A stretch of 64,000 nt of DNA, from contig CM039464.1 in NCBI GenBank assembly GCA_022414725.1, positions 52,932,557 to 52,996,556 of the forward strand, written 5' to 3'. Made by a program: the position numbers and the translations under genes. This DNA is from Microglena sp. YARC. Taxonomy: Eukaryota; Chlorophyta; Chlorophyceae; Chlamydomonadales; Chlamydomonadaceae. The notes beneath the pieces are model-generated. The model was not told the DNA's origin and made no database searches. It saw only the letters and a list, made by a program, of their open reading frames with translations. This document shows positions 14,329-38,154 of this stretch, one piece after another (positions within the stretch are counted from its first letter, which is position 1; each line of letters starts with the position of its first letter).

Positions 14329-14360
<32 letters not shown>

Positions 14361-15169: not shown

Positions 15170-15380
15170 GTTCTATGCAGCGTCGCCTGCGACGCTAAAA
15201 AATGGCAGAGAGTGATCGCGACGGAGCTTTAGGTGGCAACAGAAGCGAGTTAGTTAAGGGACCGTTGGCTGACGTGTCAGCCTTCGTCTCGGTCAGACGG
15301 ATGGATGGTTGGTCAAACGGACAAATGGGTAACCCTGGGGGCTCCTGCCCCACAGAAGGGGGGGCTCTGCCGAAAACTCC
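15170..15380 (-). repeat. Dispersed family A copy
   Basis: Inverted copy: ATGCAGCGTCGCCTGCGACG, GTTGGCTGACGTGTCAGCCT, GGGGGCTCCTGCCCCACAGA and GGGGGGCTCTGCCGAAAA. Confidence 0.85.
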
Positions 15381-15499
15381 TAGCATATGTAGGGCTAAGC
15401 ATAATCCAACATCGATACAAACTCCTTCTGTACAAGCCTGCTCCAGAGGACTCCTCTTCACCCAATCGCACAGCACTAATTTAACATCTAAACAAATCC

Positions 15500-15680
15500 T
15501 AACAATGTATGTATGTATGTATGTATGTTAGTATGTGTGTGTGTGTATGTATGTATGTATGTATGTATGTATGTATGTATGGTATGTATGATAATATATG
15601 TATGCATGCATGCATGCATGTATGTTGTATGTATGTATATATGTAGGTATGTGTGTATGTAGGTATGTGGATGTATGTTA
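15500..15680. repeat. GTAT/TGCA tetranucleotide microsatellite
   Basis: (GTAT)n with a short (TGCA)n section, about 170 bp. Confidence 0.95.
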
Positions 15681-15755
15681 CAGTCCAGGGGTAGGCCAAA
15701 TAGGCTTAAGGGACTTACCCAACCGAGACAGAAAGGGCTAAAAAGAAAAGGCATT
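15672..15755 (+). repeat. Dispersed family F copy
   Basis: GTTACAGTCCAGGGGTAGGC, AATAGGCTTAAGGGACTTAC and CCAACCGAGACAGAAAGGGC. Related copies are at 25650, 26517, 31765, 33795 and 35145. Confidence 0.75.
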
Positions 15756-16044
15756 ACCATTTGTGGCGCAAAGCAAAATCTAACAGATGAAAAATTCTTC
15801 TATTCCAGGGCATCGCACAATCTAGCTATTCCGCTACCATCTAATGTTTCCTGTTATTAAATTTGGGGCAGTAGGCAGGCTGTGCTGCTGTCCTGTCTCG
15901 GCACTGTTTTGCTGAGCTTATCCAACGATTTCTCTCTCTTCTCTCTCTCCTCTCGTCTCTCTCTCTCTCTCTCCTCTCTTGCTACACAAATAATGTATAA
16001 CTAATGCTCGTCCATGGGTGAGAGTATGGGGAATCGCAAAAAAA

Positions 16045-16345
16045 TCATCTCTAATAAGATAGTTTTTGGGCTGCCTAATGGAGCTAGAAGACGTAAGCTG
16101 CCATGCATACCCCCCCCCCCCCCACCCCCCTACTCCAACAACGAGACAACAAGAATCAATCTCTAATAAGAATAGTTGGGGCTGCCTAATTGAGCTAGAC
16201 ATAAGCTGCCATGCATACCCCACCCCCCCCCCCCCCCCCCCCCTCCCAACAACAACAATCAATCTCTAATAAGAATAGTTGGGCTGCCTAATTGAGCTAG
16301 ACGTAAGCTGCCATGCATACTCCCCCCCCCCCCCCCCCCCCCAAC
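16045..16345 (+). repeat. Three tandem units with poly-C tracts
   Basis: Units of about 110 bp carrying TCTCTAATAAGAATAGTTGG, CTGCCTAATTGAGCTAGA and TAAGCTGCCATGCATAC followed by 10-20 C. The unit is triplicated with differing C-run length. Confidence 0.9.
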
Positions 16346-16494
16346 AACAACAACAATAACAAACAAAATAGTGAAGGGGTGCCTGCATATATCAAATTCG
16401 TTAGCTATTCTATCTCCCAAAGCAAGCCATGGCACAATAAAATTCAATGTAATGACTCCTACCATGGAAAGCTCATGCCACATGTGCTGTTAGA

Positions 16495-17060
16495 GGTCTC
16501 TAATGTGATGGATCTCGTCCTTCCAGGTGCAGCTTACAAACTTACGTACTGACAACACCAACTTCTGCACTGATAACACAGACTGTGTTACACAGTTAGT
16601 TGCAGCAGCCTCAAGTGCAGCATGCTTCAGAGGGATTATTTTTCCACTATATATAGTGATCACAAGTTTTGACCCCATTTTAGCGAAATGATCGCTATAA
16701 AAAAATAAAAAGGCCCCCCCCCCTGGATGGCCATTAAAAGCTACAACAGGCACCCAAAGCGCTGTTCCCGGGGGAGGCCTCAAAACCACGAAGCTAAAAA
16801 AAAATTGAAAACAATATCACTGATGCTTCATGCTGTCAATATAATATCACTATCTCAGGCAGATCTACAGTCAAAGCAAAATCAATGCAAAATCCAAGAT
16901 GAAAAAAACTCCTACCATAAGTGGCGCAGGCCACATATGATGGTGGAGGTCCCAAGGTGATGGATCTCCTCTTTCCAGGCGCAGCAACAAACTTGCGCAC
17001 TGACGACATAGTTGGAGCAGGTGGCCTCAAGCACAGCATGCTTCTTTCTGCCAACATCAT
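16495..17060 (-). other. Duplicated exon-like segments, unknown product
   Basis: Minus-strand segments at about 16500-16625 and 16955-17045 are similar to each other: both encode a HA-x-LEA-like stretch, later TWKDEIHHIRDL in one and AWKEEIHHLGT in the other. Both contain GAGATCCATCAC. They may be diverged exon copies or a duplicated non-coding unit. No family is recognised and no complete frame spans both. Confidence 0.3.
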
Positions 17061-17094
17061 AGCTTATGTCTTGGAGTCTGAGTCCCAACTAACC

Positions 17095-17285
17095 TGCAGA
17101 CAGGAAGATGTACAGATCATGCCAAGGTCATGGTTGGATGTCATGGTTCAGGTGATATTGTCAAGGATATGTTGGATGTCGCGTCGAGGGTAAGATTGAC
17201 AAAGGCCGATGTGCAGATCATGTCAAGGTCGTGATTGGATGTCATGGTAAAGGTTTTCGTGTCAAGGCTGCTGTTGGGTGTCATG
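17095..17285 (+). repeat. Two-copy 115-bp tandem repeat
   Basis: GATGTACAGATCATGCCAAG... and GATGTGCAGATCATGTCAAG begin two similar units, each with TTGGATGTCATGGT. Confidence 0.7.
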
Positions 17286-17289
17286 TCCA

Positions 17290-17990
17290 GGCCTGGATCC
17301 TATGATCAGTTTCACGCAGTTTTTCGTAATTTGCGCACTTACGCACACGCCCAACGGTAGTCGAGTCGTGGGGAGAGCGAGCTGCAGCCTGGTGCAGCCT
17401 GCAGAATGATTGAGGCGTACAACAATCTTGAGCACGGGCGTATTGCAAGGAGAGTTTCACAGGGTGGGTTTTTAGATTTCCCATCGAACCCTAAGCACAC
17501 CCCACGCCAGTCCCGGGCGCCAGTCCCTAGTAACCCTCACCTGGCGTATACCCGGGGCGTAGACCCCCCCGCCCTCCCATACCCCTGGTCCGCCCTGCTC
17601 CCTGCTCCCTGCCCTAGTCGCCCCTAGTCGCCCCCCGAGTCGCCCCAGTCCGCCCAGACTGGTTGCGCCTGCACTTTGCGCGACTCTTCTCCTACTGCAC
17701 CGTCGTGCCCCCATTCCATGCTTCTGTCTTACCAAGGCACTCCACAGCTAACGTAAAAACAGAGTCTAGCCACGCCACCTGCTCATTCTTGCTTCCAATA
17801 TCACATCGGCCCGAGCCCGCACATTCTGAGCCAGTCTCAATTCATCCCGCACCCAATTAGCAAAGCGCGCGCAAGAACGCGCAAAATGAATAAGTGACTG
17901 CATCGCCTGGAGTAAGCCATCCATGCTCGCTCACGCCCATCGCCTTGGGCTCCCAGCAAGCCCAGCATGCCTCTACCCTAGAGGATCTGC
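17290..17990. other. GC-rich spacer, no gene resolved
   Basis: CpG-rich with short repeats such as CCCTAGTCGCCC and CCTGCTCCCTGC around 17590-17650. Open frames of 60-90 codons exist on both strands without recognisable content. It could be a promoter-type region. Confidence 0.4.
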
Positions 17991-17999
17991 ATGCCTTGA

Positions 18000-18660
18000 G
18001 CTAGGCCACCATGTGAAGGTACATCCAGTTTTGGGCTGATGGGGCTCCTGTGCATGTCTGTAAACTAACCCAACCCATGTGGTAGTTAGTACCCCACCCG
18101 CCCACCCACCCACCCACCCACCCATGCACACGCCCACCACCTTCGGCTCCCATTCAAGACCAGCATGCCCCACCCTAGAGGACCTGCATGCATTGAGATA
18201 GGCCAACATGTGAAGGTACATCCAGTTTTTGGGCTGATGGGGCACCTGGAAATGTCTTTAAACTAAGCCAACCCATGTGTAAACACCCACCCACCCACCC
18301 ACCCACCCACCCGTGCACACGCCCATCACATTGAGCTAGGCACCATGTGAAGGTACATCAAGGTTTGGGCTGATGGGGCACCTGGAAATGTCTATAAACT
18401 AACCCAACCCATGTGGTAATACCCACCCACCCACCCACTCATGCACACGCCCATCACATTGAGCTAGGCCACCATGTGAAGGTACATCCAATTTTTGGCT
18501 GATGAGGCACCTGCAAATGTCTGTAAACTAACCCAACCCATGTGGTAGTACCCACCAACCCACCCACTCATGCACACACCCATCACATTGAGCTAGGCCA
18601 CCATCTGAAGGGATAGCCAGGTTTGGGCTGATGGGGCACCTGGTCATGTATAGAAACTGT
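18000..18660. repeat. Tandem array with CCCA tracts
   Basis: Five to six units of about 110-180 bp. Each has CACCATGTGAAGGTACATCC, GGGCTGATGGGGCACCTG, AACTAACCCAACCCATGTGG and a (CCCA)n run of variable length. Confidence 0.9.
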
Positions 18661-18801
18661 ACTGACCCATGTGGTTGCAGCGTGGTGTACTGATATTTGT
18701 TACATTTACTTTACATTATCATAGGCAGGCCATAGTTGACACAAAAAATAGATTTTGATCATGGTGATTAGATTTTGGATTGATTTTTATTGTTTTTGTT
18801 T

Positions 18802-18981
18802 GAGCCCCCAGGGTTACCCATTTGTCCGTTTGTGCGTCCGACTGAAAAATTGAAGCCTGACACGTCAGCCAACTGTCTCATAACTAACTGTTCGGTCAGC
18901 TCCAGTCCGTTGCCACCTGTCATTCCGTTGCCAAGTTACTCCGCCAATTTTTCGCTTCGCTTGCCACGCTGCAAAGGACTT
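18802..18981 (+). repeat. Dispersed family A copy, 5'-truncated
   Basis: GAGCCCCCAGGGTTACCCAT, CTGACACGTCAGCCAACTGT and CTGCAAAGGACTTCTC. The GC-rich first arm is absent. Confidence 0.8.
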
Positions 18982-19055
18982 CTCATTATAATGCTTATAT
19001 TTTTGATTGATTTTGATTGTTTTTGTTAGTGTTTACAATTTATCTGGCAATTTAT

Positions 19056-19122
19056 TTATTGCCGAAGACGGCGAGCAGCCAAATTGCTGGCTGGAGCCAT
19101 GTAACCAAGTTCAAGTCCAAGT
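19056..19122 (+). repeat. Dispersed family B (double hairpin) copy
   Basis: TTATTGCCGAAGACGGCGAG, CAGCCAAATTGCTGGCTGGA and CATGTAACCAAGTTCAAGTC. Its right half seeded the tandem array that follows. Confidence 0.8.
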
Positions 19123-19835
19123 ATGTGTAGCATACCTATGCGAATGTGTGTGTGTGTATGTGGTGGTGGTGGTGGTGTGTGTGTGTGAGGGGAGGGGGGG
19201 GGGGGGGGGGGGGTCAGGGGTCAGGGAGTATATGTGTGTGTTTGTGTGTGAATAAATTGATGGCTGGAGCCATGTAACCAAGTTCAAGTCCAAGTACGTG
19301 TAGCATACCTTTGTGAATGTGTGTGGGTGTGGGTGGGTGGGTGTGGGGGGAGGTCAGGAAGCATATGTGCGTGTGTGTTAGTGTGTTATAAAATTGATGG
19401 CTGGAGCCATGTAACCAAGTTCAAGTCCAAGTTTGTTTAGCATGCCTATGTAAATGTGTGTGTATGTGTTAGTGTTAGTGTGTGTGTTTGTTAGTATGTG
19501 TGTGTGTTAGTATGTGTGTGTGTGTCTGTATATAAATTGATGGCTGGAGCCATGTCACCAAGTTCAAGTCCAAGTATGTGGGCATACCTGTGTGAGTGAG
19601 TGTGTGTGTGTGTGTGGTCAGGGAGTATATGCGCAGCTACGTGTATGTGTGTATGAATTATGTGTCTGGAGCCATGTAACCAAGTTTCAAGTCCAAGCAT
19701 GTGTAGCATACCTGTGTGAATGTATGTGGGTGGGTGGGGGGGAGTCAGGGAGTATATGTGTGTGCTTGCTTGTGTGTATGTGTGTGTGTGTGTGTAACTT
19801 GATGGCTGGAGCCATGTAACCAAGTTCAAATTGAC
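19120..19835 (+). repeat. Tandem array from family B tail plus TG repeats
   Basis: Six units of GATGGCTGGAGCCATGTAAC, CAAGTTCAAGTCCAAG, TGTAGCATACCT and variable TG/GGGG sequence. It shows a dispersed repeat being turned into a local array. Confidence 0.85.
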
Positions 19836-19839
19836 CCAA

Positions 19840-20090
19840 AACAAAGCTCCAAAGTGCCCGTGGGGCTCTTTAAAGCTCCCCACATGCTATCACCTCACGC
19901 CTTGTTGTAAGGCATATTATGTTTGTATTTATTTAAAGACAAACTGTGGGATGGTACGGCCACTCTGCCACCCTGTCACCCTGCCACCTCATCCCTCAAC
20001 ACTCTTCAAATAACATAAAACACTCCGCCATTCTGTCACCCTGCCACCTCATCCCTCAACCCCTTCCCATCCTCCACCCTCCTACTTCCA
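19840..20090. other. Spacer with CTGCCACC repeats
   Basis: Pyrimidine-rich sequence, CACTCTGCCACCCTGTCACC and CTGCCACCTCATCCCTCAAC recurring. It leads into the next array. Confidence 0.5.
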
Positions 20091-20094
20091 TCTC

Positions 20095-20930
20095 CATCGC
20101 ATCCAGCCTCATTGACAGAGCGTGCTGTTCGTCAACCCCATCAACATATCCCCGGTGTGTGGACTTCTCATGCATTGACATGCAACACACTTAAAATATC
20201 ATCTCTAACTCTGTCACCCTGTCACCCTGCCACCTCATACCTCGACTCCTTCCCACCCTCCACCCTTGCACTCCTATCCCCATTACAGCCAGTCTCATTG
20301 ACAGAGCGAGCTGTGCTCCAACCCCATCAACTCATACCTGGTGTGTGGAGCCCTCATGCATAGACATGCAAAACACTCCAAGTAGCATCTCTAACTCTGT
20401 CCCCCTGTCACCCTGCCACCTCATACCTCGACACCTTCCGACACTCCACCCTCCTACTTCCATCCCTGTTTCAGCCAATCGCATTGATAAAGCAAGCTGT
20501 GCGCCAACCCCATCAACACATCCCCAGTGTGTGGAGCCCTCATGCATAGACATGCAACACACTCCAAGTAGCATCTCTAACTCTGTCCCCCTGTCACCCT
20601 GCCACCTCATACCTCGACTACTTCCCACCCTCCACCCTCCTACTTCCATCCCCGTTGCATCCAGCCTCATTGACAGAGCGTGCTGTGCGCCAACCCCATC
20701 AACACATCCCCGGTGTGTGGAGCCCTCGTGCATTGGCATGCAACACACTCCAAATAATATGTGTCACTCTGCCCCCCTGCCACCTCAACCCTCAACTCCT
20801 TCCCACCCACCACCCTCCTACTTCCATCCCCATTGCAGCCAACCTCATTGACAGAGCGAGCTGTGCGCCAACCCCATCAACACATTCCCAGTGTGTGGAG
20901 CCCTCATGCATTGACATGCCACGCTCTTTC
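20095..20930 (+). repeat. Acceptor-side copies before DUF2232 first recognised exon
   Basis: Five units of about 185 bp. Each has a pyrimidine-rich part (CTGTCACCCTGCCACCTCAT), then CTCATTGACAGAGCGAGCTG, CGCCAACCCCATCAACACAT and GTGTGTGGAGCCCTCATGCA. The last unit is continuous with the exon ending at 21210, so the others look like copies of the intron end plus exon start. Confidence 0.75.
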
Positions 20931-21210
20931 CTCGAAAGCACCGTCCTGCAGTACTACAGCACTGCACGCAAGGGGACCTCTTAGCGTTACAAGGGCTCTA
21001 CAGGCACTACATATTAGGGTGTCTGGCAGGAGTGCCAAGGCACTAGACATTAGAGGCTCTCTTGTGTGCCCGGCCGTTGCAGGGGAGGGAGCTATGGAAG
21101 GGAGTGACCTGCCTGAGAGTTACACTTTGGATCAAGTCAAGATTCTCGTAGAGACGTCTATGTTAGCGGCTGTCTCTGGGCTCACATACCTCGTCTCCAC
21201 CATCCTCAAG
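20930..21210 (+). CDS. DUF2232 membrane protein, first recognised exon
   Basis: Encodes LPESYTLDQVKILVETSML then AAVSGLTYLVSTILK and ends at donor GTGCGT at 21211. The segment DQVKILVETSMLAAVSGLTY matches the first helix region of plant and algal plastid proteins of the DUF2232 family, known also in cyanobacteria and Firmicutes as a polytopic membrane protein of uncertain function. The preceding frame (LSVTRALQALHIRVSGRSAK, hydroxylated and basic) could be a plastid transit peptide, which is inference. The start codon was not resolved; the frame is open back to about 20761. Three further exons lie at 25207, 30585 and 32051. The phase between this exon and the next does not close (one nucleotide is unaccounted for), so a tiny exon or a different boundary is likely. 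Confidence 0.8.
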
Positions 21211-21334
21211 GTGCGTCGATTCACGTTTCCTGAATCTGCTGTATTTTATGTGTGTAGGTGTTTGTGTGTGTGTGTGTGGGGTGGGTGTGGGGGGGGATTG
21301 TGAGGACAGCTTACATCTTATTACTCATGAATTT

Positions 21335-21429
21335 ATTATGTCAATGTTGGCGGCTGTCTCTGGGCTCACATACCTTGTCTCCACCATCCTCAAGGTACGA
21401 CCATTCATGTTACCTGACCCTGCTATATT

Positions 21430-21460
<31 letters not shown>

Positions 21461-21719
21461 GTGGTGTGTGGGGGGGGGTATTGGCTTATTGTGAGGGCAG
21501 CCTATATCTTATGATATGTAGGTTGGCGGCTGTCTCCGGGCTCACATACCTCGTCTCCACCATCCTGAAGGTACGTCCATTCGTGTTTCCTGAGCCTGCT
21601 ATATTGTGTGTTGTGTGTGTGTGTGTGTGTGGGGGGGGGGGAGATTGTGGGGACACTTATATCTACGTTGGCGTCTATGTTGGCTGCTTTTTTTGTGTAT
21701 GGGTGTTTGTATGTGTATG

Positions 21720-21750
<31 letters not shown>

Positions 21751-22206
21751 GTGGTGGGGGGGGGGTATTGTTTATTGTGAAGATTGTGAGGACAGCCTAT
21801 ACCCTTATGACGTCTATGTTGGGCAGCTGTCTCCGGGCTCACATACCTTGTCTCCACCGTCCTCAAGGTGCGATCATTGTGTGTATTCATTTTATTTTAC
21901 GGAAGTAGTCAATATGTCCTGGTTCCAAGATTTAGTGCAGGTTATAATATGTATAATATATTGGCTGTGTCTCTGGGCTCACATACCGTGTCTCCATTAT
22001 TCTCAAGAACGTCCAATCATGTTTCCTCAGCCTGCCTGTATTTTGTATATGTGTGTGTGTGGTGGTGGTGGTGGTGGTGGTGGTGGTGGGGGGTGGGGGG
22101 GGGGTGGGGGGGGGAAGATTGTGAGGACAGCCTATATCTTATGACGCCTATGTTGGCGTCTGTCTCTGGGCTCACACACCTTGTCTCCACCATTCTCAAG
22201 GTACCT
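21335..22206 (+). repeat. Five copies of exon end plus donor after DUF2232 exon
   Basis: Copies at about 21339-21400, 21520-21575, 21818-21872, 21960-22012 and 22150-22206. Each repeats GGCGGCTGTCTCTGGGCTCA, CATACCTTGTCTCCACCATC and CTCAAG, usually followed by a GTACG or GTGCG donor. Each copy is followed by a poly-G/TG tract, so the duplicated unit was exon end plus donor plus intron start. Confidence 0.9.
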
Positions 22207-22209
22207 GGG

Positions 22210-22510
22210 CGATCGTCATTTCTGATGTTATCGCCTCTTATCACCTCTTATCCCCCCCCCCACCACACACACACACACACACCACCACGCCACTTCCACC
22301 CCACACCACCCCACCCCACACACACATAGCCCCTCCTGATGTAATCGCCTTTTACCAGCCTCTTACCTCCATTTTTATCTTCCTGCACCACTATGTTGTA
22401 TGGCTTTTTTTTACGCATACTCCCTCTTTTTTGACTTCCATTTGTGTTTTGTATTTTAATGTACAATCGTTCGTGTTTTCCTGGTCCTGTTTTTGTGTTT
22501 CTTTTTGTTT
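22210..22510. other. Intron sequence, CA/CCCC tract
   Basis: C-rich and CA-rich at 22250-22325, otherwise unremarkable. No exon seen. Confidence 0.6.
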
Positions 22511-22514
22511 TGTA

Positions 22515-23375
22515 AAGCTGTGTGAAGATTGTGATATCGGTGATATGGGTTTTTGTATGTGTGTGGAGGTGGGGTGGGTGGTGGGGTCTGTGTGTTGTGT
22601 AGGGGGGGGGGGGGGAGTATTGTTTGTTGTTGTGAAGGCTGTGAGATTGGTGATGTGGGTTTTTGTATGTGTGTGGAGGTGGGGTGGGTGGGTGGGGTCT
22701 GTGTGTGTGTAGGGGGGGGGGGGGGGGGGGGGGAGTATTGTTTATTGTGAAGACTGTGAGATTGAGATTGTGATATGGTTTTTTGTATGTGTGGGAGGTG
22801 GGGTGTGCAGGTGGGTCTGGTTGTGTAGTCTGGGGGGGGGGGGGGAGGGGGAGTATTGTTTATTGTGAAGACTGTGAGATTTTGGTGATATGGTTTTTGT
22901 ATGTGTGTGGATGCGGGTGTGGTGGGTCTGCGTGTTGTGTAGGGGGGGGGGGGGGGGAGTGTTGTTTATTGTGAAGACTGTGAGATTGGTGATATGGGTT
23001 TTTTATGTGTGTGGAGTGGCGTGGGTGGGTGGGGTCTGGTGTGTGTGTATAGGGGGGGGGGGGGGGGGGGAGTGTTGTTTATTGTGAAGACTGTGAGATT
23101 GGTGATATGGGTTTTGTATGTGTGTGGAGGTAAATCCTACGCGGTGGTGGTGATGGGGGTCCATGTGTGTGTGTGTAGGGGGGGGGGGGGGGCCGGGTAT
23201 TGTTTATTGGGACTGTGAGATTTGTGATAGGGTTTTTGTAATGTGTGTGGGAGGGGGGGCGATGGGTCTGCTGGTGGTGTATGGGGGGGGGGGGGGAGGG
23301 CGGGGGGGGGAGTATTGTTTATTGTGAAGACTGTGAGATTGTGATATGGGTTTTTGTATGGGTTGGTGTGGGTGG
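22515..23375 (+). repeat. Eight-unit array with long poly-G runs
   Basis: Units of about 105-120 bp: TATTGTTTATTGTGAAGACT, GTGAGATTGGTGATATGGGT, TTTTGTATGTGTGTGGAGGT and a run of 10-25 G. It lies within the first DUF2232 intron, and the first part resembles the intron start of the previous array. Confidence 0.9.
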
Positions 23376-23474
23376 TGTTCCATTCGTGTTCTCTAGGTAC
23401 GATCATTAGTCATTGCATGTATTCGTATTTTCTAGATCTCCGTCCTTCTGTTGTGTCCTTTTGCATTGTTAAAT

Positions 23475-23725
23475 TGCCATTTTTTTATTTTATTATTATA
23501 TTATTATTATTATGTTGTGTTGTTGTTGTTGTTAATTATAATAATATAATAATTATTATTATTATTATTATTATGTTATTATATATTATTATATATTATT
23601 ATTATTATTATTATTATTGATACTGTTGTTGTTGTTGTTGTTGTTTGTTGTTGTTGTTGTTGTTCTTGTTGTTGTTGTTATAATATTATTATTGTTATTA
23701 TTATTATTTATGTTTTTACCTACAA
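23475..23725. repeat. TTA/TTG trinucleotide microsatellites
   Basis: Compound (TTA)n, (TAT)n and (TTG)n over about 240 bp. Confidence 0.95.
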
Positions 23726-23869
23726 TGGCGCGGTGTACCGGTATTTGTATTTCTGCTCCTTTTTGTGTCTGTATTTGAATTGCAAATTACCATTTTTGCC
23801 TATAATAGAGTGCCGATATTCGTATTTTCTGATCCTTTTTGTATGCCTATACTTTTTACGAGCAACTTA

Positions 23870-25190
23870 CATTATATCTTGTCTCCACCCTTCACCGTCT
23901 ATCACACACACCACGTACTTGCAGTACTACGGATGGCGCACATTGCAAAATACTGTATCCATTCAATTCCTATCATTCACTCCCCACCCTTTACCATCTA
24001 TCACACTAACCACGTGCTTGCAGTACAAAGGATGGCTCACCTTGTTACGCACTGCACTCATTCAATTCTTATCATTGAAACCACGTACTTGCAGTACAAA
24101 GGATGGCGCACCTTGTCTCTCACTGTACTCATTCAATTCTTATCATTGAAACCACTCCATTCACCTCCTATCACACACACCACGTACTTGCAGTACGAAG
24201 GATGGCGCACCTTGTTACACACTGTACTCATTCAATTATTATCGTTCAGACCACTCCAATCACCTCCTATTACACACTTACCACGTCCTTGCAGTACAAA
24301 GGATAGCGCACCTTGCAACACACTGTATTCATTCAATTCCTATCATTCACTCCCCACCCTTTATCATCTATCACACTAATCACGTCCTTGCAGTACAAAG
24401 GATAGCACACCTTGCAACACACTGTATTCATTCAATTCCTATCATTCACTCCCCACCCTTTATCATCTATCACACTAATCACGTCCTTGCAGTACAAAGG
24501 ATAGCACACCTTGCAACACACTGTATTCATTCAATTCCTATCATTCACTCCCCACCCTTTATCATCTATCACACTAATCACGTCCTTGCAGTACAAAGGA
24601 TAGCACACCTTGTAACGCACTGTACTCATTAAATTCTTATCACTCAAACCAGTCCATCCACCTCCTATCACACACACCACGTACTTTTAGTACGAAGGAT
24701 GGCGCACCTTGTAACGCACTGTACTCATTCAATTCTTATCACTCAAACCACTCCATTCACCTCCTATTACACACTAACCACGTGCTCGCAGTACAAAGGA
24801 GTTGCGCGCTCGACTCAATCATCTCTGCTGTAACGCATTGTCCTCATTTAATTCTTATCATTGAAACCACTCCATTCACCTCCTATTACACACTGACCAC
24901 GTGCTCGCAGTACAAAGGATGGTGCACCTTGTAACGCATTGTCCTCATTTAATTCTTATCATTGAAACCACTCCATTCACCTCCTATTACACACTGACCA
25001 CGTGCTCGCATTACAAAGGATGGTGCACCTTGTAACGCATTGTACGCATTCAATTATTATCATTGAAACCACTCCATTCACCTCCTATCATACACACCAC
25101 GTACTTGCAGTACAAAGGATGGCGCACCTTGTAACTCACTGAACTCATTTAATTATTATCACTCACTCCCCACCCTTACGTCTATCACTC
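23870..25190 (+). repeat. About 13 acceptor-side copies before DUF2232 exon 25207
   Basis: Units near 100 bp: CTCCTATCACACACACCACG, TACTTGCAG, then TACAAAGGATGGCGCACCTT. The true exon is preceded by CTATCACTCGCACCACCATT and TGCAG and starts GGGAAGGATCC, so each unit imitates the polypyrimidine tract, acceptor and exon start. Later units are more diverged from the true site than from each other, indicating array homogenisation. Confidence 0.8.
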
Positions 25191-25206
25191 GCACCACCAT
25201 TTGCAG

Positions 25207-25317
25207 GGGAAGGATCCCTGGGCTACTTCCTCCCCCTTCCCATCATTTTGTCCGCCATGCGGTCTGGGCCTTTTGCAGGCTGGCGCACCATGTATACCAC
25301 CGGCTTCCTCCTCGTGG
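25207..25317 (+). CDS. DUF2232 membrane protein, second recognised exon
   Basis: Acceptor ACCATTTGCAG precedes, donor GTGAGTGG follows. It encodes EGSLGYFLPLPIILSAMRSG then PFAGWRTMYTTGFLLV. The LGYFLPLPI and MRSGP elements are conserved in plant and algal members and fall between the first two membrane helices. It ends one base into a Val codon that is completed by the exon at 30585 (G plus TT). Confidence 0.9.
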
Positions 25318-25394
25318 GTGAGTGGATGACTGGCCCAGCCTTTAAAACATCAATAAGTCAATTAATAAATACATAAAAATAAGTCATTGAATCA

Positions 25395-26035
25395 TTGCCG
25401 GCTGGCGCACCATGTATACCACCGGCTTCCTCCTCGTGGGTGAGTGGATGACTTGCCCAGCCTTTAAAACATCAAGAAGTCAATTAATAAATACATAAAA
25501 ATAAGTCAATGAATCATTGCCGGCTGGCGCACCATGTACACCACCGGCTTCCTCCTCGTGGGTGAGTGTGTGAGCTCATAAATGTATGTAGTTGTATGTT
25601 TTGTGAAGTAGTTGTCTGTATTTGTCTGTATTGTAAATTATTTTTGCATTCCAGGGGTGGTCAAGAAGGCCAAAGGGACTTCCCCAACCTTCAAAGCATG
25701 AATAATTAAATTAATCATTGCCGGCTGGTGCACCATGTATACCACAGCCTGCCTCCTTGTGGGTGAGTGAGTGAGGTTATAATAAAGGGACTTGCCCAGC
25801 CTTAAACATCAATCATACAATTATTAAATAAAATTTAAAAGCAAATTATTAAATAAAATTTAAAACATCAATCATTAAATTATTAAATTTAAACACACCA
25901 ATCATTAAATTATTAAATTTAAACACATCAATCATTAAATTATTAAATTTAAACACATTAATGAAGTCAACTAATCATTGCCGGCTGGCGCACCATACTC
26001 ACCATAGCCTTCCTCCTCGTGGATGAGTGGATGAG
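25395..26035 (+). repeat. Copies of exon end plus donor after DUF2232 exon 25207
   Basis: Copies at about 25397-25450, 25518-25568, 25721-25770 and 25978-26030: GCCGGCTGGCGCACCATGTA, TACCACCGGCTTCCTCCTCG and TGGGTGAGTG. A degenerate fifth copy is at 26600-26650. The first two are nearly identical to the true exon edge, later ones less so. Confidence 0.9.
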
Positions 26036-26044
26036 GTTATAAAT

Positions 26045-26470
26045 GTATGTACTGTTTATGTGTTGTTAAGTATTTGTATGTACTGTTTATGTGTTGTTAA
26101 GTATTTGTATGTACTGTTTATGTGTTGTTAAGTATTTGTATGTACTGTTTGTGTGTTGTTAAGTATTTGTATGTACTGTTTATGTGTTGTTAAGTATTTG
26201 TATGTACTGTTTATGTGTTGTTAAGTATTTGTATGTACTGTTTATGTGTTGTTAAGTATTTGTATGTACTGTTTATGTGTTGTTAAGTATTTGTATGTAC
26301 TGTTTATGTGTTGTTAAGTATTTGTATTTACTGTTTATGTATTATTAAGTATTTGTATGTACTGTTTATGTGTTGTTAAGTATTTGTATGTACTGTTTAT
26401 GTGTTGTTAAGTATTTGTATGTACTGTTTTATGTGTTGTTAAGTATTTTGTATGTATTGTTTATGTATTG
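26045..26470. repeat. 31-bp minisatellite
   Basis: About 13 units of GTATGTACTGTTTATGTGTT + GTTAAGTATTT, in the second DUF2232 intron. Confidence 0.95.
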
Positions 26471-26654
26471 TTGATTGTTTATATGTATTTGTTATGTATT
26501 TTTAATTATTTTTGTATACCAGGGGAGCTAAAGGAACTTGCCCAACCTTGAAACCATATCCCCGGTTTGTGTTTTTCAATAAATCAATCGATAATTGCTC
26601 TCGCACCATGTGTACCACTGGTTGAATACTTGTGGTTGCGTGGATGAGGTGATT

Positions 26655-26785
26655 GCATTACATTGCATTACATTAAATTACATTGCATTACATTGCATTA
26701 CATTGCATTACATTGCATTACATTACATTGCATTACATTACATTATGTTACATTAAATTACATTACGTACAATTATGTTACATTA
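26655..26785. repeat. CATTACATTG microsatellite
   Basis: Compound (CATTA)n/(CATTG)n over about 120 bp. Confidence 0.95.
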
Positions 26786-26844
26786 ATCCTTGTGGGTGAG
26801 TGGATGGACTCTCCAAGTAAACACAGTCACAATTATTTGTGGAC

Positions 26845-27110
26845 CTTCGCATGGCAGCTTCCAACCAGCTCTATTAGCCAGCCACTGGGTCTCTCTCATT
26901 ATGTCATCTTTCAGACGCACTAGCCAGCTTTAGGTTTGGCCTAAGGACAGGGGGAAGTAGCTGCATGAAGCTGCTACATGTAGTAAAAATATAATCAGTG
27001 CTCCTGCCAGCTCCATTAGCCAGCCACTGGGTCAAGCCCCAAGCTTTCAGCTGCATTGGAATGCCCATCATGTCAGCTTTCTGATACACTAGCCAATTTT
27101 GCTCGCACTG
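26845..27110 (+). repeat. Two family C copies in tandem
   Basis: 26845-26990 contains GCATGGCAGCTTCCAACCAG and GCTGCATGAAGCTGCTACAT. 27000-27110 contains GCCAGCCACTGGGTCAAGCC and CAGCTGCATTGGAATGCCC. Confidence 0.8.
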
Positions 27111-27163
27111 CGGCCAACCACCAAATAAAATAGATCTTAGCAGCGCTTTTTGTCCAGACGGAT

Positions 27164-27372
27164 TTTTGGCGGAGCCTCTCCTTCTGGGGGGCAGGAGCCC
27201 TCAGTGTTACCCATTTGTCCGTTTGACCGACCAACAATCCATCTGACCACGATGAAGGTTGACACGTCAGCCAACGGTCTTGTAACTAACTCACTTCCGT
27301 TACCACCTGTCACTCCCTCGCGAACACTCTCCGCCAATTGTTTGCGTCGCTAGCAACGCTGCGTAGAACTTG
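27164..27372 (+). repeat. Dispersed family A copy
   Basis: TTTTTGGCGGAGCCTCTCCT, GGGGGGCAGGAGCCCTCAGT, TTGACACGTCAGCCAACGGT and CTAGCAACGCTGCGTAGAAC. Full length. Confidence 0.85.
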
Positions 27373-27394
27373 TTGCCTCACGGGCGGGTCTGTC

Positions 27395-27875
27395 ATGTCA
27401 GCTTTCAGACACACTAGCCAGTTTTAGGATAAGCCCCTTGCACTGTTTCGTTTTGGGCCTTACCATGAAATTTCACAATTTCATTTTGGGGCTTCTCTTC
27501 TTTCAGACACACTAGCCAGTTTTAGGATAAGCCCCTTGCACTGTTTCGTTTTTGGCCTTACCATGAAATTTCACAATTTCATTTTGGGGCTTCTCTTCTT
27601 TCAGACACACTAGCCAGTTTTAGGATAAGCCCCTTGCACTGTTTCGTTTTTGGCCTTACCATGAAATTTCACAATTTCATTTTGGGGCTTCTCTTCTTTC
27701 AGACACACTAGCCAGTTTTAGGATAAGCCCCTTGCACTGTTTCGTTTTTGGCCTTACCATGAAATTTCACAATTTCATTTTGGGGCTTCTCTTCTTTCAG
27801 ACACACTAGCCAGTTTTAGGATAAGCCCCTTGCACTGTTTCGTTTTTGGCCTTACCATGAAATTTGACAATTTCA
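27395..27875 (+). repeat. 98-bp satellite array, left part
   Basis: Five units with exact 98-bp spacing (TTTCAGACAC at 27501, 27599, 27697, 27795). Each holds TTCTCTTCTTTCAG, an excellent acceptor-like sequence, then ACACACTAGCCAGTTTTAGG, CCCCTTGCACTGTTTCGTTT and ATGAAATTTCACAATTTCAT. The TTTCAGACACACTAGCCAG part is shared with family C. Confidence 0.95.
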
Positions 27876-28629
27876 GACGATTGACTCAGATTCCTTACAG
27901 TTGCCTTTTCATATTTCCAATACATATAATTTACCCTTAAGGGTTGAGGAAATTAAGCACATGCAGGCTTCATCATTGTCAGTACTTATATTTGCAAAAG
28001 TATGGGGGCCTGCTTGCTGTGTATTGAGACACTGCACGAGAGGTCCAGCGATTTTTTCAGATGGGCCCCCATTGTACAAGTGCTAGTAGACATATTTTAA
28101 GGTGTATGCTGGCTTGTAAGTTTTAGCTTTGTGTGTGATATTTCACCTTAATTAGGGGGTATATCACACCACTAGCTGGCTTTACTGGTCTTATCAGCTT
28201 TTATCATTAAATAAAGTCAACTGCACTATCTAGCTTGTAAGTCCAGACTGTTCAGGTCTGTCTTTGTGGCTACTACCAATAGAGTCGCTACTGTCAAATA
28301 ATAACAGAAGTCACTTCCCCTGGGAGGCTCAGGTAGCTTCTGGAAGATATAACTCCTGTGGGACAGAGGGAATGGTGGTGGGAAACTCGAAATTTGGTAA
28401 GATCAAGGCTCAGCAGCTTGGGGCACCAAGATTTTAGTGCCCCCAGTGACTGTGCACTTGATTTTTATACCGGGCAGGACAGTACTGCTTGGGAAAACAC
28501 TGGCGGTGGTTACTCCTGGTTTTGCCTCGGGGGTTTACGGGTATTTGAAAATATGAATGCGCTCCTGCGGAATCTTACGTCGCGCGGCTGAATACTCCAT
28601 TTCACCCACTACTGTGTGGGAAATGTGGC
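27876..28629. mobile_element. 754-bp insertion splitting the 98-bp satellite
   Basis: Unique sequence begins GACGATTGACTCAGATTCC and ends GTGTGGGAAATGTGGC. The satellite breaks at TTTCA on the left (27871-27875) and resumes at TTTCA (28630-28634), consistent with a 5-bp target duplication. No terminal inverted repeat and no poly-A is evident. A 77-codon frame at 28358 is not recognised. It could also be the ancestral spacer with the array duplicated around it. Confidence 0.45.
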
Positions 28630-29110
28630 TTTCATTTTGGGGCTTCTCTTCTTTCAGACACACTAGCCAGTTTTAGGATAAGCCCCTTGCACTGTTTCGT
28701 TTTTGGCCTTACCATGAAATTTCACAATTTCATTTTGGGGCTTCTCTTCTTTCAGACACACTAGCCAGTTTTAGGATAAGCCCCTTGCACTGTTTCGTTT
28801 TTGGCCTTACCATGAAATTTCACAATTTCATTTTGGGGCTTCTCTTCTTTCAAACACACTAGCCAGTTTTAGGATTAGCCCCTTGCCTGTTTCATTTTTG
28901 TGCTTCTTGTGGCAGCTTCCAGCCAGCTCCATGTCAGCTGCATTGGCATGCCCATGCTGGGTCGTGTCAGCTTTCAGACACACTAGCCAGTTTTAGGATT
29001 AACCCCTTGCCCTGTTTCATTTTTGGGCTTCTCATGCCAGCTTCCCGCCAGCTCCATGTCAGCTTTCAGACACACTAGCCAGTTTTAGCATTAGCCCCTT
29101 GCCTCTTTCA
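28630..29110 (+). repeat. 98-bp satellite array, right part
   Basis: Three regular units to about 28900, then diverged units mixing in family C pieces (CAGCTTCCAGCCAGCTCCAT, CAGCTGCATTGGCATGCCCA). Confidence 0.9.
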
Positions 29111-29350
29111 TTTGTGTGCTTATTGTGGCAGCTTCCAGCCAGCTTCATGTCAGCTGCCATGGAATGCCGGTCATGTAAGCTGGCAGTGTCACACGCTTAT
29201 GTATGTTTAGCTGAGAACTTCACTTTAGCTGAACTTCACCTTTTAGCTGAACTTTCACCTTTAAGCTGGAACAATGCCGGTCATGTCAGCTGGCAGTGTC
29301 ACACGCTTATGTATGGTTTAGCTGAACTTCACCTTTAGCTGAACTTCACC
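29110..29350. repeat. Short repeats of TTAGCTGAACTTCACC
   Basis: A 115-bp unit (CCGGTCATGTAAGCTGGCAG, TGTCACACGCTTATGTATG) occurs twice, and TTTAGCTGAACTTCACCTT recurs five times. Confidence 0.8.
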
Positions 29351-29421
29351 TTTCTCCCCTCACCCTATCCCCTTATTCTCACCCCATCCCCCCCCCCCCC
29401 CCCCCACCCGCCCGCCCCCCC

Positions 29422-29456
<35 letters not shown>

Positions 29457-30584
29457 TGTTCCTGTCCCCCCCTGAGCCCCCACCCCCTGCCCCACCCCCA
29501 CACCACACCACACCACTTGCACCCCACCCTCACCCCTATTCGCTCGCCCCTCACCCTCACCCTCATCCCCTCATCCCCTCACTCTCACCTGATCCCCCCC
29601 ACATGTCCCCACCCACATCCCCACCTGTCCCCACCAGTTTGTCTGGCCCACTGCGCGCCCTTTCCTACGTGCTTATACGCGGCCTCTTGTCAGCCACCGT
29701 AAGGACCCCCACCCCACACACCACACCACTCCCACCCCACCCTCACCCCTATTCGCTCGCCCTCACCCTCATGCCCGAACTCTCACCTTATCTCCCCCCC
29801 CTGTCCCCACCCCACCCCCACCCCACCCCCCACCCCCCATCTCCCCCCTCTTCCCCCGCCCCATTCCCCCCACCCCTGTCCCCACCAGTTTTGCTAGGCC
29901 CACTGCTCACCCTCTCCTACGTGCTTATACACGGCCTCTTGTCAGCCACCCTAGGTACCCTCACCAAGCATCCCTATCCCATCCCCCCCCCCCTTCCTGC
30001 CCCCCCCCCCCCTCCCACCCCTCCCACCCACCCCACCCCACCCCACCCCACCAGTTCTGCTTGGCCCACTGCGGCCCTCTCCTACGTGCTTATCCACGGC
30101 GTCTTGTCAGCCACCCTAGGGACCTCCACCCCCCCCAACACCTTATTCCCCCCCCACACACCCCCACCCCTGTCCCCACCCACCTCATCCCACTCCACCC
30201 CCCATCCCCCACCCCTGTCCCCACCAGTTCTGCTTGGCCACTGCGGGCCCTCTCCTACGTGCTTATCCACGGCGTCTTGTCAGCCACCCTAGGGACCTCC
30301 ACCCCCCCCAACACCTTATTACCCACCCCCCACCCCCCCCCCCTGTCCCCACCCCTGTCCCCACCCCACCTCATCCCCCCCCACCCATCCCCCCCCCCCT
30401 GTCCCCACCAGTTCTGCTAGGCCCACTGCGCGCCCTCTCCTACGTGCTTATCCACGGCGTCTTGTCAGCCACCCTAGGGACCTCCACCCCCCCCAACACC
30501 TTATCCCCCCCCCCCCCCCCCCCCCCCTGTCCCCACCCCACCTCATCCCCCCCCACCCCATCCCCCCCCCCCTGTCCCCACCAG
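29350..30584 (+). repeat. Acceptor-side copies with poly-C before DUF2232 exon 30585
   Basis: Five copies of the exon start at about 29640, 29890, 30055, 30229 and 30413. Each is preceded by CTGTCCCCACCAG and reads CTGCTAGGCCCACTGCGCGC, CCTCTCCTACGTGCTTATCC and GTCTTGTCAGCCACCCTAGG before running into poly-C. Units are about 175-185 bp. All lie upstream of the one copy that continues into further coding sequence. Confidence 0.92.
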
Positions 30585-30805
30585 TTCTGCTAGGCCCACT
30601 GCGCGCCCTCTCCTACGTGCTTATCCACGGCCTCTTGTCAGCCACCCTAGGGACCTGTTGGAAGCTTAAGGCTAGCTGGTGGCTGAGTGTGGTGGTGGGG
30701 GCCCTGGTGCGAATGACAGGCCAGTGTGCTTATCTGATGCTCACCTCCCTCACCATGAATGAGAACCTCTTTCTCCTCATGTTATCTAACGTGTACTCCA
30801 TGCTG
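30585..30805 (+). CDS. DUF2232 membrane protein, third recognised exon
   Basis: Preceded by CTGTCCCCACCAG, followed by donor GTGAGTGG. Encodes LLGPLRALSYVLIHGLLSAT, then LGTCWKLKASWWLSVVVGAL, then VRMTGQCAYLMLTSLTMNEN and LFLLMLSNVYSML. The G-P-x-R-A-L-x-Y-x-L-x-H-G segment and the W-K-L step are family hallmarks. About three membrane helices are encoded. The first base pair completes Val from the previous exon, and the exon ends in phase 0. Confidence 0.92.
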
Positions 30806-30960
30806 GTGAGTGGGTGGGTGTTGGTAGAGTGGGTGGGGTGGGGTGGGGTGGGGGTACTCCATGCTAGTGAGTGGTTGGGTGGGTGGGGTGAAGGGGTGGG
30901 GTGGGGCACTCCATGCTGGTGAGTGAGTGGGTGGGTGGGAGTGTGAGTGTATGTGTGTGA
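30806..30960 (+). repeat. Copies of exon end plus donor after DUF2232 exon 30585
   Basis: TACTCCATGCTAGTGAGTGG and CACTCCATGCTGGTGAGTGA repeat the last bases of the exon and the donor, at about 30855 and 30908, separated by GGTGGG-type sequence. Confidence 0.8.
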
Positions 30961-30974
30961 ATGATTGCCTTAAC

Positions 30975-31510
30975 CAATTTTTCCTACTGGTATGTCTCAG
31001 TGAAGTCTGGTTATCTTGAATAATATCAGAGAAATGTTCTTTAACACCTAATCTCTGAATACATCTTAGTAATCCACGAGACCAGCATTGTTTGTTGCTA
31101 TCTCTGGTTGCGATTAGAACATTCTCTAGCAAGGCTCTTTTCACAAAATTGTCGTCATTGCGGTCAACGATTTATTCCAAAAGCCAAAACATGGTCTCAA
31201 CCATTCAGCCCATGTTGGTGGTCTATCAAGTTCATTGAGGACCATGTTGGTAGAGGTGATATCTCTAACACCGAGAGCCCTTTTTATAAACTTAATCTGA
31301 ATAATTTCAAATTTTTCTTCGAGACTGTAAGAAGTATTAATATTACCCAGACGGCCTGGAGCCCACACTTCACACTCGTAGTTAAGGATAGGTTGTATAA
31401 GTATGCAGTAAAGGATATTGGCCTTTGCGAGATCCATCTCGTTGCACCGTTTCCAGAGTACATGAGTAGCCCTGTTGTCTCTCACCGGCATCGTGTTTGC
31501 CGCCATTCCT
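30975..31510 (-). pseudogene. Fragment of LINE reverse transcriptase
   Basis: On the minus strand, 31506-31141 encodes ILYCILIQPILNYECEVWAP, then KFEIIQIKFIKRALGVRDIT and LNELDRPPTWAEWLRPCFGF. This is the conserved C-terminal part of non-LTR retrotransposon reverse transcriptases (x-P-I-L-x-Y-x-x-E-V-W, then the K-R-x-L-G-V motif). A stop and frameshift separate it from a continuation (LLRCIQRLGVKEHFSDIIQD) near 31030-31130. The catalytic domain is absent. It is a 5'-truncated decayed insertion inside the last DUF2232 intron, opposite to the host gene. Confidence 0.8.
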
Positions 31511-31589
31511 GCCGTGTTTCCCCTTGAATAAATGTCTTAAATACACTAACTCCTCTCCTTAATGGGAAGGTCTTGGCCATGATATCAGG

Positions 31590-31850
31590 AGGGGATAAAA
31601 CAGAAACTACTGATGAGCTGAACCCCAAACAATCGTTTTACCCTTTGAAGTTGGTGCTACAGTGATCATTCACCCCTGCAAAATCTACGTGTGGACCCTC
31701 CCAAATATGTATCTGGGACGTGATGTAGGTATGTTACCCTCCCAAATATGTATCTGGGACGTGATGTATGTTACAGACCATGGGTAGGCCGAATAGGCTA
31801 AAGGGACTTGACCAACCGTGACACAAAGGGCCGAAAAGAAAAAACTTTGA
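31590..31850 (+). repeat. Family F-related segment
   Basis: GAACCCCAAACAATCGTTTT at 31620 and GTTACAGACCATGGGTAGGC, CGAATAGGCTAAAGGGACTT, GACCAACCGTGACACAAAGG at 31765-31840. A 55-bp direct duplication of CTCCCAAATATGTATCTGGG lies at 31697 and 31739. Confidence 0.7.
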
Positions 31851-31904
31851 GACGTGAAACGTAACGTTTCAAACAACCCTGGGTCTGACCAAGTGCGCTC
31901 ACTC

Positions 31905-31995
31905 TTTTGTAGGAGTGGCAACGCCATTCGAACGGAATCCTCCGTGTCGCTTGTTTGTGGAGGGAAACCCACCTCCTGGGGTGAAAACCCTTTCA
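31905..31995 (+). repeat. Dispersed family E copy
   Basis: AGGAGTGGCAACGCCATTCG, AACGGAATCCTCCGTGTCGC and CCACCTCCTGGGGTGAAAAC. Inverted relative to the copy at 14990. Confidence 0.7.
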
Positions 31996-32050
31996 CCACT
32001 TTAAAACAAATGGCTCTGACCCCCTCACTTTCCTTCCCGTGCCCTTTCAG

Positions 32051-32284
32051 GACCAGATCGCTGCCTCCATAGGTGCGTCCGGAGCCCCCTCCACCCTGGC
32101 AGTGGTGTGCATGATCTTCTCATTGCTTCTTGTGAACGGGCTGTGCTACTCCTTCCTCCTTCATGTCGTGTACCGCATCCTCCTCAATTACATGGGCTAT
32201 GAGCTGGGTCCCCTACCCAGTATAGTGAAGAAGTACTTGTTCGCTGGCGCTCCAGATGCGGCAGACATGCAAGGAGGGAAGTAG
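32051..32284 (+). CDS. DUF2232 membrane protein, terminal exon
   Basis: Acceptor CCTTCCCGTGCCCTTTCAG precedes GACCAG; the exon starts in phase 0 and ends with TAG. It encodes DQIAASIGASGAPSTLAVVC, MIFSLLLVNGLCYSFLLHVV, then YRILLNYMGYELGPLPSIVK and KYLFAGAPDAADMQGGK. One long hydrophobic helix followed by an L-L-H-x-x-Y element and a basic tail, as in plant members. Together the four exons encode about 230 residues of the mature membrane part. Confidence 0.92.
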   Translation, partial: DQIAASIGASGAPSTLAVVCMIFSLLLVNGLCYSFLLHVVYRILLNYMGYELGPLPSIVKKYLFAGAPDAADMQGGK

Positions 32285-32339
32285 ATAGATGGGCTATCAT
32301 TTATATTAAACTGTTATACTACATTAAACTATTATAATC

Positions 32340-33165
32340 GAGTGCTGGTATAGTATGCATACCTCACCCTTCTTAATTACATGGGCTATGAGCTGGGTAC
32401 CCTACCCAATATAATGAAGAAGTACTTGTTTGCTGGTGCTCCTGATGCGGCAGACATGCAAGGAGGGAAGTAGATAGATGGGCTATCATTTATATTAAAC
32501 TATTATAATGGAGTGTTGGTACCGTGTGCTTACCTCACCCTTCTTAATTGCATGGGCTATGATCTGGGGCGCCTACCCAATATAGTGAAGAAGTACTTGT
32601 ATGTTGGCGCTCCAGATGCGGCAGACATGCAAGGAAGGAAGTAAAAAATATATAACGCCTGGAGGGGCGTGGTGTTTAGGGGACCCTCCCGTACGCCGCA
32701 GCTGGGGAACGTCACCATGGCAGGCATAGTAAGTGTCACCCTCCAGGCGGTAGGGACTCCTTCATGCAACAAGGAGGTAAGTAGATAGATGGGCTATCAT
32801 TGGTATTATACTATTATACTATGCTATACTATTAAAATCTAGTGTTAGTACCGTATGCGTACCTCACCCATCTTAATTACAAGGCCTATAATCTGACTGC
32901 CGCCTACCCAAAATATTGAATATGTCTTTGCGCTCCGGATGCGGCAGACATGCGAGCAGGGAAATAGATAGGTGGGTGAATAATTTATATCCAACCTAGT
33001 GTAATCGAGTGTTCGTATCCAACTGTAATCGAATGTCTTTATGTATACCGAGTCCTTCTTAACGTCATGGGCTAAGATCTGGGACCCTAACAAAAAATAG
33101 TGAAGAATGACTTGTTTGCTGGCGCTGCGAAAGTGGCAGATATGCGAGCAGGGGAGTATGGAGGG
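32340..33165 (+). repeat. Copies of the DUF2232 terminal exon tail and 3' UTR
   Basis: Four progressively diverged copies at about 32370-32500, 32540-32645, 32860-32970 and 33050-33160: TTACATGGGCTATGAGCTGG, GTGAAGAAGTACTTGTTTGC and GCGGCAGACATGCAAGGAGG, then TAGATAGATGGGCTATCATT. They include the stop codon and early 3' UTR, so the duplicated unit extended past the stop. The copy nearest the gene is closest in sequence. Confidence 0.92.
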
Positions 33166-37784: not shown

Positions 37785-38080
37785 TTCAAATTTAATTACC
37801 TTGGAGCAACCCACTCAGCTAGTTCCAGGTTGTTGGGGTCATGACACAATTTAAGATATGAATTCAAATTGGATTCAAATTCGAATTTAATTACCTTGGA
37901 GCAACCCACTCAGCTAGCTCTAGGTTGTTGGGGTCATGACACAATTTGAGATATGAATTCAAATTGGATTCAAATTCGAATTTAATTACCTTGGAGCAAC
38001 CCACTCAGCTAGCTCTAGGTTGTTGGGGTCATGACACAATTTGAGATATGAATTCAAATTGGATTCAAATTCGAATTTAA
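37785..38080 (-). repeat. Copies of the phosphoesterase terminal exon tail
   Basis: Three units of about 103-110 bp. On the minus strand each reads GACCCCAACAACCTAGAGCT, AGCTGAGTGGGTTGCTCCAA, then GGTAATTAAATTCGAATTTG. They repeat the last 14 codons, the stop TAA and the following AT-rich sequence of the exon at 38081-38154. Confidence 0.92.
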
Positions 38081-38154
38081 TTACCTTGGAGCCACCCACT
38101 CAGCTAGCTCCAAGTTGTTGGGGTCTCGATCGTGTTGCTTGTAGTAGGCAGACC
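38081..38154 (-). CDS. Metallophosphoesterase, terminal exon
   Basis: Minus-strand acceptor CCCTCCCGTCAG precedes GGTCTGCC. With one base (T) carried from the exon ending at 40729 it encodes WSAYYKQHDRDPNNLELAEW then VAPR and TAA. The W-S-x-Y-Y ... D-P-x-N-L-E-L-A-x-W-V ending is typical of this plant and algal calcineurin-like phosphoesterase group. Exact phase agreement with the upstream exon supports the call. Upstream exons are at 40729, 43159, 43785, 54657 and 56408. Confidence 0.92.

Follow-up and report, generated by a model that had tools for sequence, protein, structure and literature searches.

The DUF2232 Gene and Its Exon-Edge Arrays

The DNA described here is a stretch of 64,000 nucleotides of contig CM039464.1 from Microglena sp. 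YARC, hereafter the window, in which a gene for a DUF2232 protein is accompanied by tandem copies of its own exon edges, lying in the introns and past the stop codon. Judging by its sequence, the 64-kb window comes from the nuclear genome of a green alga of the Chlorophyceae; the assembly searched comprised 568 Mb in 2390 contigs. The exons of the DUF2232 gene were set without use of the repeats, by tblastn of the EukProt protein P0001, all of them on the plus strand: E1, coding from the ATG and followed by the donor GTGCGT (21094..21210), E2 (25207/9..25317), which gave a single full-length match in the genome search, E3 (30585..30805), and E4 with the stop codon TAG (32051..32284), for which edge query and alignment were also used and whose acceptor has no copies. 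The joined protein was the same as P0001 except for one residue, the guessed one, and the next most similar proteins were those of Haematococcus, Volvox, and Chlamydomonas. The DUF2232 domain was recognized by Pfam (PF09991, E = 8.7e-12). With the exception of that one residue at the E1/E2 junction, P0001 agrees with the outermost splice sites of the gene. At 25201-25215, P0001 has K-L-E over this junction, and the window has no Leu codon there and is one base short past the acceptor; the mismatch may be a base error, an allele, or a different assembly.

The edges of the window genes were searched with queries of 40 nt, composed of 30 exon and 10 intron nt (40-mers), and arrays were delimited with Tandem Repeats Finder (TRF). 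All the following features are on the plus strand. The end of E1 is followed by 5 copies (21211..22205; offsets 174, 350, 645, 782, and 976, also detected by TRF), the donor part being clear in the match of 3 of them. Another 5 copies of the end of E2 with its donor were found at 25381..26820 (offsets 112, 233, 434, 700, and 1479), the last one as a 19-nt match. Upstream of E3 there are 5 copies of the acceptor and exon start (29620..30582, 40-mer and TRF, period 173), and downstream of it 2 short copies of the exon end and donor, of 21 nt each (30822..30939, 40-mer and TRF). Past the stop codon, the coding tail is repeated 4 times according to the 40-mer (32323..33160; offsets 180, 345, 498, and 673), and at the protein level tblastn extended these copies to 33156. 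In total, 4 of the 6 splice edges had copies of the same strand on their intron side, the stop had them downstream, and none of the 7 edges tested matched on the exon side. The original prediction, made from the sequence alone, had described copies before the exon at 30585, after the exons ending at 21210, 25317, and 30805, and four times past the stop, and these were all recovered, with 5, 5, and 2 copies at the three donors.

The same prediction held that every recognized exon edge was amplified, which went too far. No copy of the E4 acceptor (32051) was found with the 40-mer, and its alignment score of 18 was below the shuffle maximum of 34. Before the exon at 25207, where about 13 copies had been proposed, an array with a unit of about 99 bp does exist (23885..25165, 1.9 + 10.7 copies by TRF), and it is similar to the E2 acceptor's intron flank together with 9 exon nt; the 40-mer found no copy upstream in spite of it. 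The alignment covered about 61 intron nt and 9 exon nt with a total score of 64, to which the intron part alone contributed 63 (shuffle maxima 38 and 39), and the exon part alone scored 20 against a shuffle maximum of 27, so the array shares almost only intron sequence with this edge. About 5 copies had also been placed before an exon at 20930: a 186-bp array of 4.8 copies is present 5′ of the coding sequence (20033..20919, TRF), and the exon edge itself has no protein support, P0001 starting at the ATG in 21094. The E2-edge query found at least 4 places in the 568 Mb, all in the DUF2232 locus and 3 of them E2-end copies; by this test, made with one edge, an introner or other dispersed intron element was rejected.

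Frequency of the Arrays in the Genome

Exon edges at other genes were sampled by Pfam search for exons of TCP1/Cpn60 and kinesin, which gave 64 and 128 matches. From the former, 52 matches in 11 loci were used; from the latter, 33 loci were picked by eye with the long weak matches omitted, and 20 loci (63 matches) were used, so that the sample comprised 31 loci. One TCP1 match was classed as a copy when the 187 edges were set and later counted as an exon. After dropping 42 edges with weak splice signals, 145 with clear ones remained, and copies were searched on the intron side within 1500 nt of the edge. Such a copy was present at 73 of the 145 edges (0.503) and an exon-side copy at 1; the count was 72 when the match had to include 10 exon nt, and queries of reversed sequence, taken as chance control, matched at 2 edges. 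Exon centres had copies in 12 of 72 cases. The arrays affected 27 of the 31 loci, and the other 4 had no edge copies. Together with two more genes of the window, this answers the suggestion to look for exon-edge arrays elsewhere, and the one-sidedness and the decoy splice sites first proposed for the DUF2232 gene are general.

In the window, 23 edges of three genes (DUF2232, gene A, and the metallophosphatase-like gene D) were queried and 12 showed intron-side or downstream copies, or 12 of 22 when the edge A.ec.a (1513) is omitted, which turned out to be a decoy and not an exon. Stop codons behaved in a similar manner: of the 4 lying within the window or next to it, 3 had copies (those of DUF2232, gene A, and gene D), the Cmc1 stop having no copies of the coding tail, and so had 2 of 7 TCP1 stops, one of these as an 18-nt match (4 of the 11 TCP1 genes lacked a C-terminal match). 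TRF arrays with a period of at least 30 occupied 36.7% of the window and 30.9% of the 31 sampled loci.

Breakpoints, Spacing, and Decay of the Decoys

The 145 sampled edges and 16 edges of the window were used to locate the breakpoints, requiring at least 5 intron nt and with exon overhangs below 10 nt undetectable. Copies crossed the edge at 82 of the 161 edges, with quartiles of the nearest-copy offset of 134/173/208. They reached into the exon by 40.5/61.5/81.5 nt (quartiles; 5-95% range 16-129) and into the intron by a median of 70 nt, with a median identity of 82%; the nearest-copy offsets were distributed 29/29/24 modulo 3. The breakpoints are scattered within the exon, and their initiation at splice-site sequences was rejected.

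In 199 edge-crossing alignments, which are not independent of each other, divergence was 0.116 in the exonic part (1468/12625) and 0.208 in the intronic part (10224/49124). With one of the two copies frozen, a ratio of one half is expected, and the observed value of 0.56 is close to it. The decoy AG was retained in 107 of 123 copies, as compared with 84/98 and 59/76 for exonic control dinucleotides at equal distance from the anchor, and the decoy GT in 45 of 54, as compared with 29/39 and 22/26. Decoy splice sites seem to be neither purged nor retained by selection, and their decay is neutral-like. The decoys would then be mostly harmless, with the outermost pair recognized across the exon.

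Successive copies at 73 edges were spaced mainly by 140-200 bp (119 of 242 spacings) and by 80-120 bp (55). For general 60-mers the spacing peak lay at 160-180, flanked by a shoulder at 80-120. The pattern is less distinct among the 314 TRF arrays, whose most populated period class was 30-50 bp (83), with minor peaks at 90-110 (36) and 170-190 (31). A link between the nucleosome-length units and the duplicating process is speculation.

Proposed Local Tandem Duplication and the Position of the Exon Edge

We consider pervasive local tandem duplication, combined with selection on exons, the best explanation of the arrays, with a probability of about 0.72. Local tandem duplication would run through the introns and flanks of the genome, the edge copies lying mostly 80-200 bp apart and growing into arrays. 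When an exon edge lies within the unit, the copy that touches the exon would stay in use and the rest would drop into the intron, and copies that enlarge or disrupt the exon would be removed by selection. At a donor, the arrangement would become exon-donor-intron-[exon end-donor-intron]; splicing from the first donor would leave the exon as it was, with the copy inside the intron. The acceptor would be the mirror image, and the stop codon would behave likewise with no need of splicing. In this way selection on exons would give the one-sided pattern without a special rule; that the one-sidedness is automatic is an argument and not a test. The duplicating process may be replication slippage or unequal exchange, selection may be the cause of the one-sidedness, and the outermost donor and acceptor may be correctly recognized, for example, by exon definition, with the closest pair chosen across the exon. 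Slippage or unequal exchange had been among the candidates originally named, and it fits the data; its proposed start at splice sites found no evidence.

We compared the edges with random intron points that were drawn from 4000 and matched for complexity. These points had a copy downstream in 0.422, upstream in 0.410, and on either side in 0.523 of the cases, and the either-side rate matched or exceeded the edge rate in 1419 of 2000 resamples. Self-similar DNA accounted for 0.56 of the intron bases and for 0.51 of those beyond 1 kb from exons. Among young pairs, with at least 90% identity, 17 of 145 edges were crossed (0.117), and the pseudo-edges gave 0.113 for any downstream copy and 0.149 for either side.

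Several results weigh against this explanation. Random points counted on one side matched the edge rate in merely 46 of 2000 resamples, and the either-side rate fell to 0.389 (n = 525) for points more than 1 kb from exons, nearer ones giving 0.47-0.615. Moreover, as arrays outgrow the unit that seeds them, crossings of an edge should be rarer than coverage of a random point. In an interval permutation (115 internal edges, 300 runs, exon overhang of at most 150 nt), the re-placed duplication intervals covered 22.0 edges (standard deviation 4.0) versus 55 of 115 observed, a 2.5-fold excess that none of the 300 runs equalled. Pairs with at least 80% identity crossed 0.379 of the edges, and pseudo-edges had 0.255 downstream, 0.098 downstream-only, and 0.347 on either side; at 90% the edges were still 2.8 times the downstream-only pseudo-edges (0.042). 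Copies were more frequent at acceptors (49/81) than at donors (24/64; Fisher p = 0.0075), which the plain neutral model does not predict; with purely exonic 40-mers, in the set of 189 edges without splice-signal filter, the figures were 54/102 and 37/87 (p = 0.19). Finally, 3 of the 23 edge queries in the window also matched on the exon side (D.e1.a, D.e3.d, and A.ec.a).

Some of these results are what would be expected if duplication, atop the general background, were preferentially seeded at exon edges, for instance by exon-positioned nucleosomes, R-loops, or pausing of replication or repair. We regard such seeding as unlikely, and as the best of the alternatives. It is consistent with the interval re-placement, with strictly one-sided pseudo-edges being rarer than amplified edges at all 7 identity cuts, with the lower rate of points far from exons, and with the nucleosome-like spacing of about half of the edge copies. 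However, the plain edge rate is the same as that of random intron points counted on either side, no excess over any-downstream pseudo-edges is seen among young pairs, the spacing peak is shared by general 60-mers, and the scattered overhangs and the similar behaviour of stop codons do not point to the edge itself. Moreover, the slower exonic divergence favours detection at edges: from the ratio of 0.56, a frozen exon may lengthen it up to about 1.8-fold, and part of the edge excess is thus explained. The true edge preference is bounded between none and about 2.5-fold, and some preference may exist, considering that the stricter nulls leave an excess of 2.5- to 2.8-fold. A wider proposal takes exon edges as hotspots where duplications of about nucleosome length are seeded at roughly 1.5-2.5 times the intronic rate, mirages (a pattern known from amphioxus, see below) being a genome-wide engine of intron growth and the exon-definition spliceosome tolerating many intact decoys per gene; this we find about as unlikely.

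The other candidates fare far worse. Selection in favour of splice-site clusters, with the decoys being regulatory or buffering, is very improbable: GT and AG are intact in many decoys, but their retention is about that of exonic dinucleotides in the copies, arrays are also found past stop codons, and half of the edges have none. An assembly artefact is more improbable still; copy numbers may be inexact in the near-identical arrays at 37785-38125 (97%) and 42331-43168 (96%), and one base is apparently missing at the E2 start, but the copies are diverged, unequally in their exonic and intronic parts, in most loci of the sample. Least credible of all is the copying of edges into introns by RNA- or cDNA-mediated repair at splice junctions, which the exon edge inside the copies fits in no specific way: crossing copies run on into the intron, so spliced RNA was not the template (unspliced RNA still could be), and local copies are equally common at random intron points.

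Relation to Known Systems

The original prediction knew of no described mechanism and named candidates that centre on splice sites. The pattern is in print, as the "mirages" of amphioxus, minisatellite-like tandem duplications of acceptor and donor exon boundaries in the globins BflGb6 and BflGb9 (PMC3087553), and the scattered breakpoints, the stop codons, and the random intron points do not support the need for a mechanism acting at splice sites. According to that report, the BflGb6 units measure 150-160 bp, AG/GT is intact in many copies though not in all, and regular splicing is undisturbed; variation of copy number between haplotypes also belongs to the amphioxus type; Adh3, TnC, and PGBD5 are given as further amphioxus cases in PMC3902484. 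In the alga, likewise, the repeat unit spans the exon-intron boundary, both boundaries are hit, and AG/GT is retained by many copies and lost from others. Unlike amphioxus, the host is a chlorophycean alga, known here from one DNA assembly, about half of the sampled edges in two Pfam families and three window genes are involved, and edge preference and decay were tested. On these likenesses of sequence, we file the arrays as mirages in a green alga, frequent across the genome sample. The pattern itself is already described; what is new is the distant lineage, the frequency, and the decay measurements. No algal report of exon-edge arrays was found among the matches listed in a search of 5.39 million open-access papers, judged by titles and abstract openings.

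Variable internal tandem repeats of human segmental duplications are described as minisatellites at exon-intron boundaries which may form novel introns (PMC2812944); half of them are said there to be coding and gene-changing, whereas the algal copies lie outside the exon. A further counterpart is the gain of introns through tandem duplications that include splice signals, as in the Rogers model (named in PMC3087553) and potato RdRp (PMC4974935). The algal duplications also carry splice sites, with the difference that no intron gain is shown. Units of nucleosome length are usual in satellite DNA according to PMC8122249; the algal unit is near that length, but its arrays are local, intronic, and derived from the adjoining exon edge, not centromeric.

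If about half of the edges bear near-identical, neutrally decaying decoys, the spliceosome would have to pick the outermost sites by a cue other than local sequence, and the decoy arrays would make exon versus intron definition directly testable. The exon, as a frozen reference, would allow the growth of introns by tandem duplication to be timed. Gene models and domain searches can also be led astray by exon-edge arrays, as with P0165 and the CAND6-7_N match described below.

Other Genes of the Window

Gene A (EukProt P0165) lies on the minus strand. Its exon b (3652..4089, tblastn), with the donor at 3651, is followed by 5 copies of exon end and donor (2876..3470, 40-mer and TRF); its first donor had no copies with the 40-mer. 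Its last exon has 4 decoy copies of acceptor and exon start, 3 of them at 319..1513 and the fourth outside the window, as is the true exon (L039). Past the stop, 7 tail-like protein matches at E ≤ 1e-3 were obtained, plus two weaker. The decoy exon-start copy at 319-378 (minus) stands as coding in P0165 (VRRMELMLNFNRDASSLEQ before VRRMELMRNFDRDASSLEQ), which may be exonisation or a corrupted gene model. The start of the last exon was also seen inverted within the intron, at 3227-3265 and 3512-3559 (plus), the closest copy in direct orientation lying about 1.7 and 2.0 kb away. The claim that orientation is always preserved is thus valid for the DUF2232 copies and fails for gene A.

The exons of gene D, also on the minus strand, were set by tblastn with the homologues P0045-P0049 and P0080; no protein of the same species was present among the best 120 of 269 matches, and the top matches had less than 50% identity. 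With the 40-mer, 6 of the 13 edges tested carried copies; D.e1.d is an uncertain edge, and the set includes neither the edges of exon 2 nor the donor of exon 7. The acceptor edge of the first recognized exon (56935..57014) has 5 upstream copies, with 2 more lying downstream. Three versions of this exon stand at 56520-57463, the 5′ one intact, the second nearly whole, and the third degenerate and running on into the next exon; they may represent an intermediate of intron gain of the kind in the mirage model, or else a gene in decay. Arrays with a unit of about 174 bp and GTAAGT on the minus strand occupy 46800-52573, in an intron of gene D. Exon 5 (43785..43991) has a single 20-nt copy of its end and donor 148 nt downstream. 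Next to exon 6 (43159..43268) there is a 71-bp satellite of 11.8 copies (42331..43158, TRF), which shares with it 10 nt of exon end and donor in the edge query; a Pfam CAND6-7_N match at 42572-43026 (E = 4.3e-9) was rejected as false, as it falls in this exon-edge-derived satellite (42331-43168). A 113-bp array of 5.2 copies at 39122..39706 (TRF) resembles, by eye and from translations, the 3′ part of exon 7. The last exon, with the stop TAA (38081..38152), showed no copy at its acceptor in the edge query, and 3 copies of its coding tail lie 3′ of the stop (37785..38080; offsets 87, 182, and 276, also TRF).

Rfam and tRNA scans of the 64-kb window gave no match. A Cmc1-like gene (Pfam PF08583, E = 8.9e-11) was placed by eye at 6830-7129 (plus), with an uninterrupted frame from ATG to stop. 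A COX1-like fragment (PF00115, E = 7.8e-6), also placed by eye, is found near 40250 (minus) and is probably mitochondrial DNA inserted in the nucleus.

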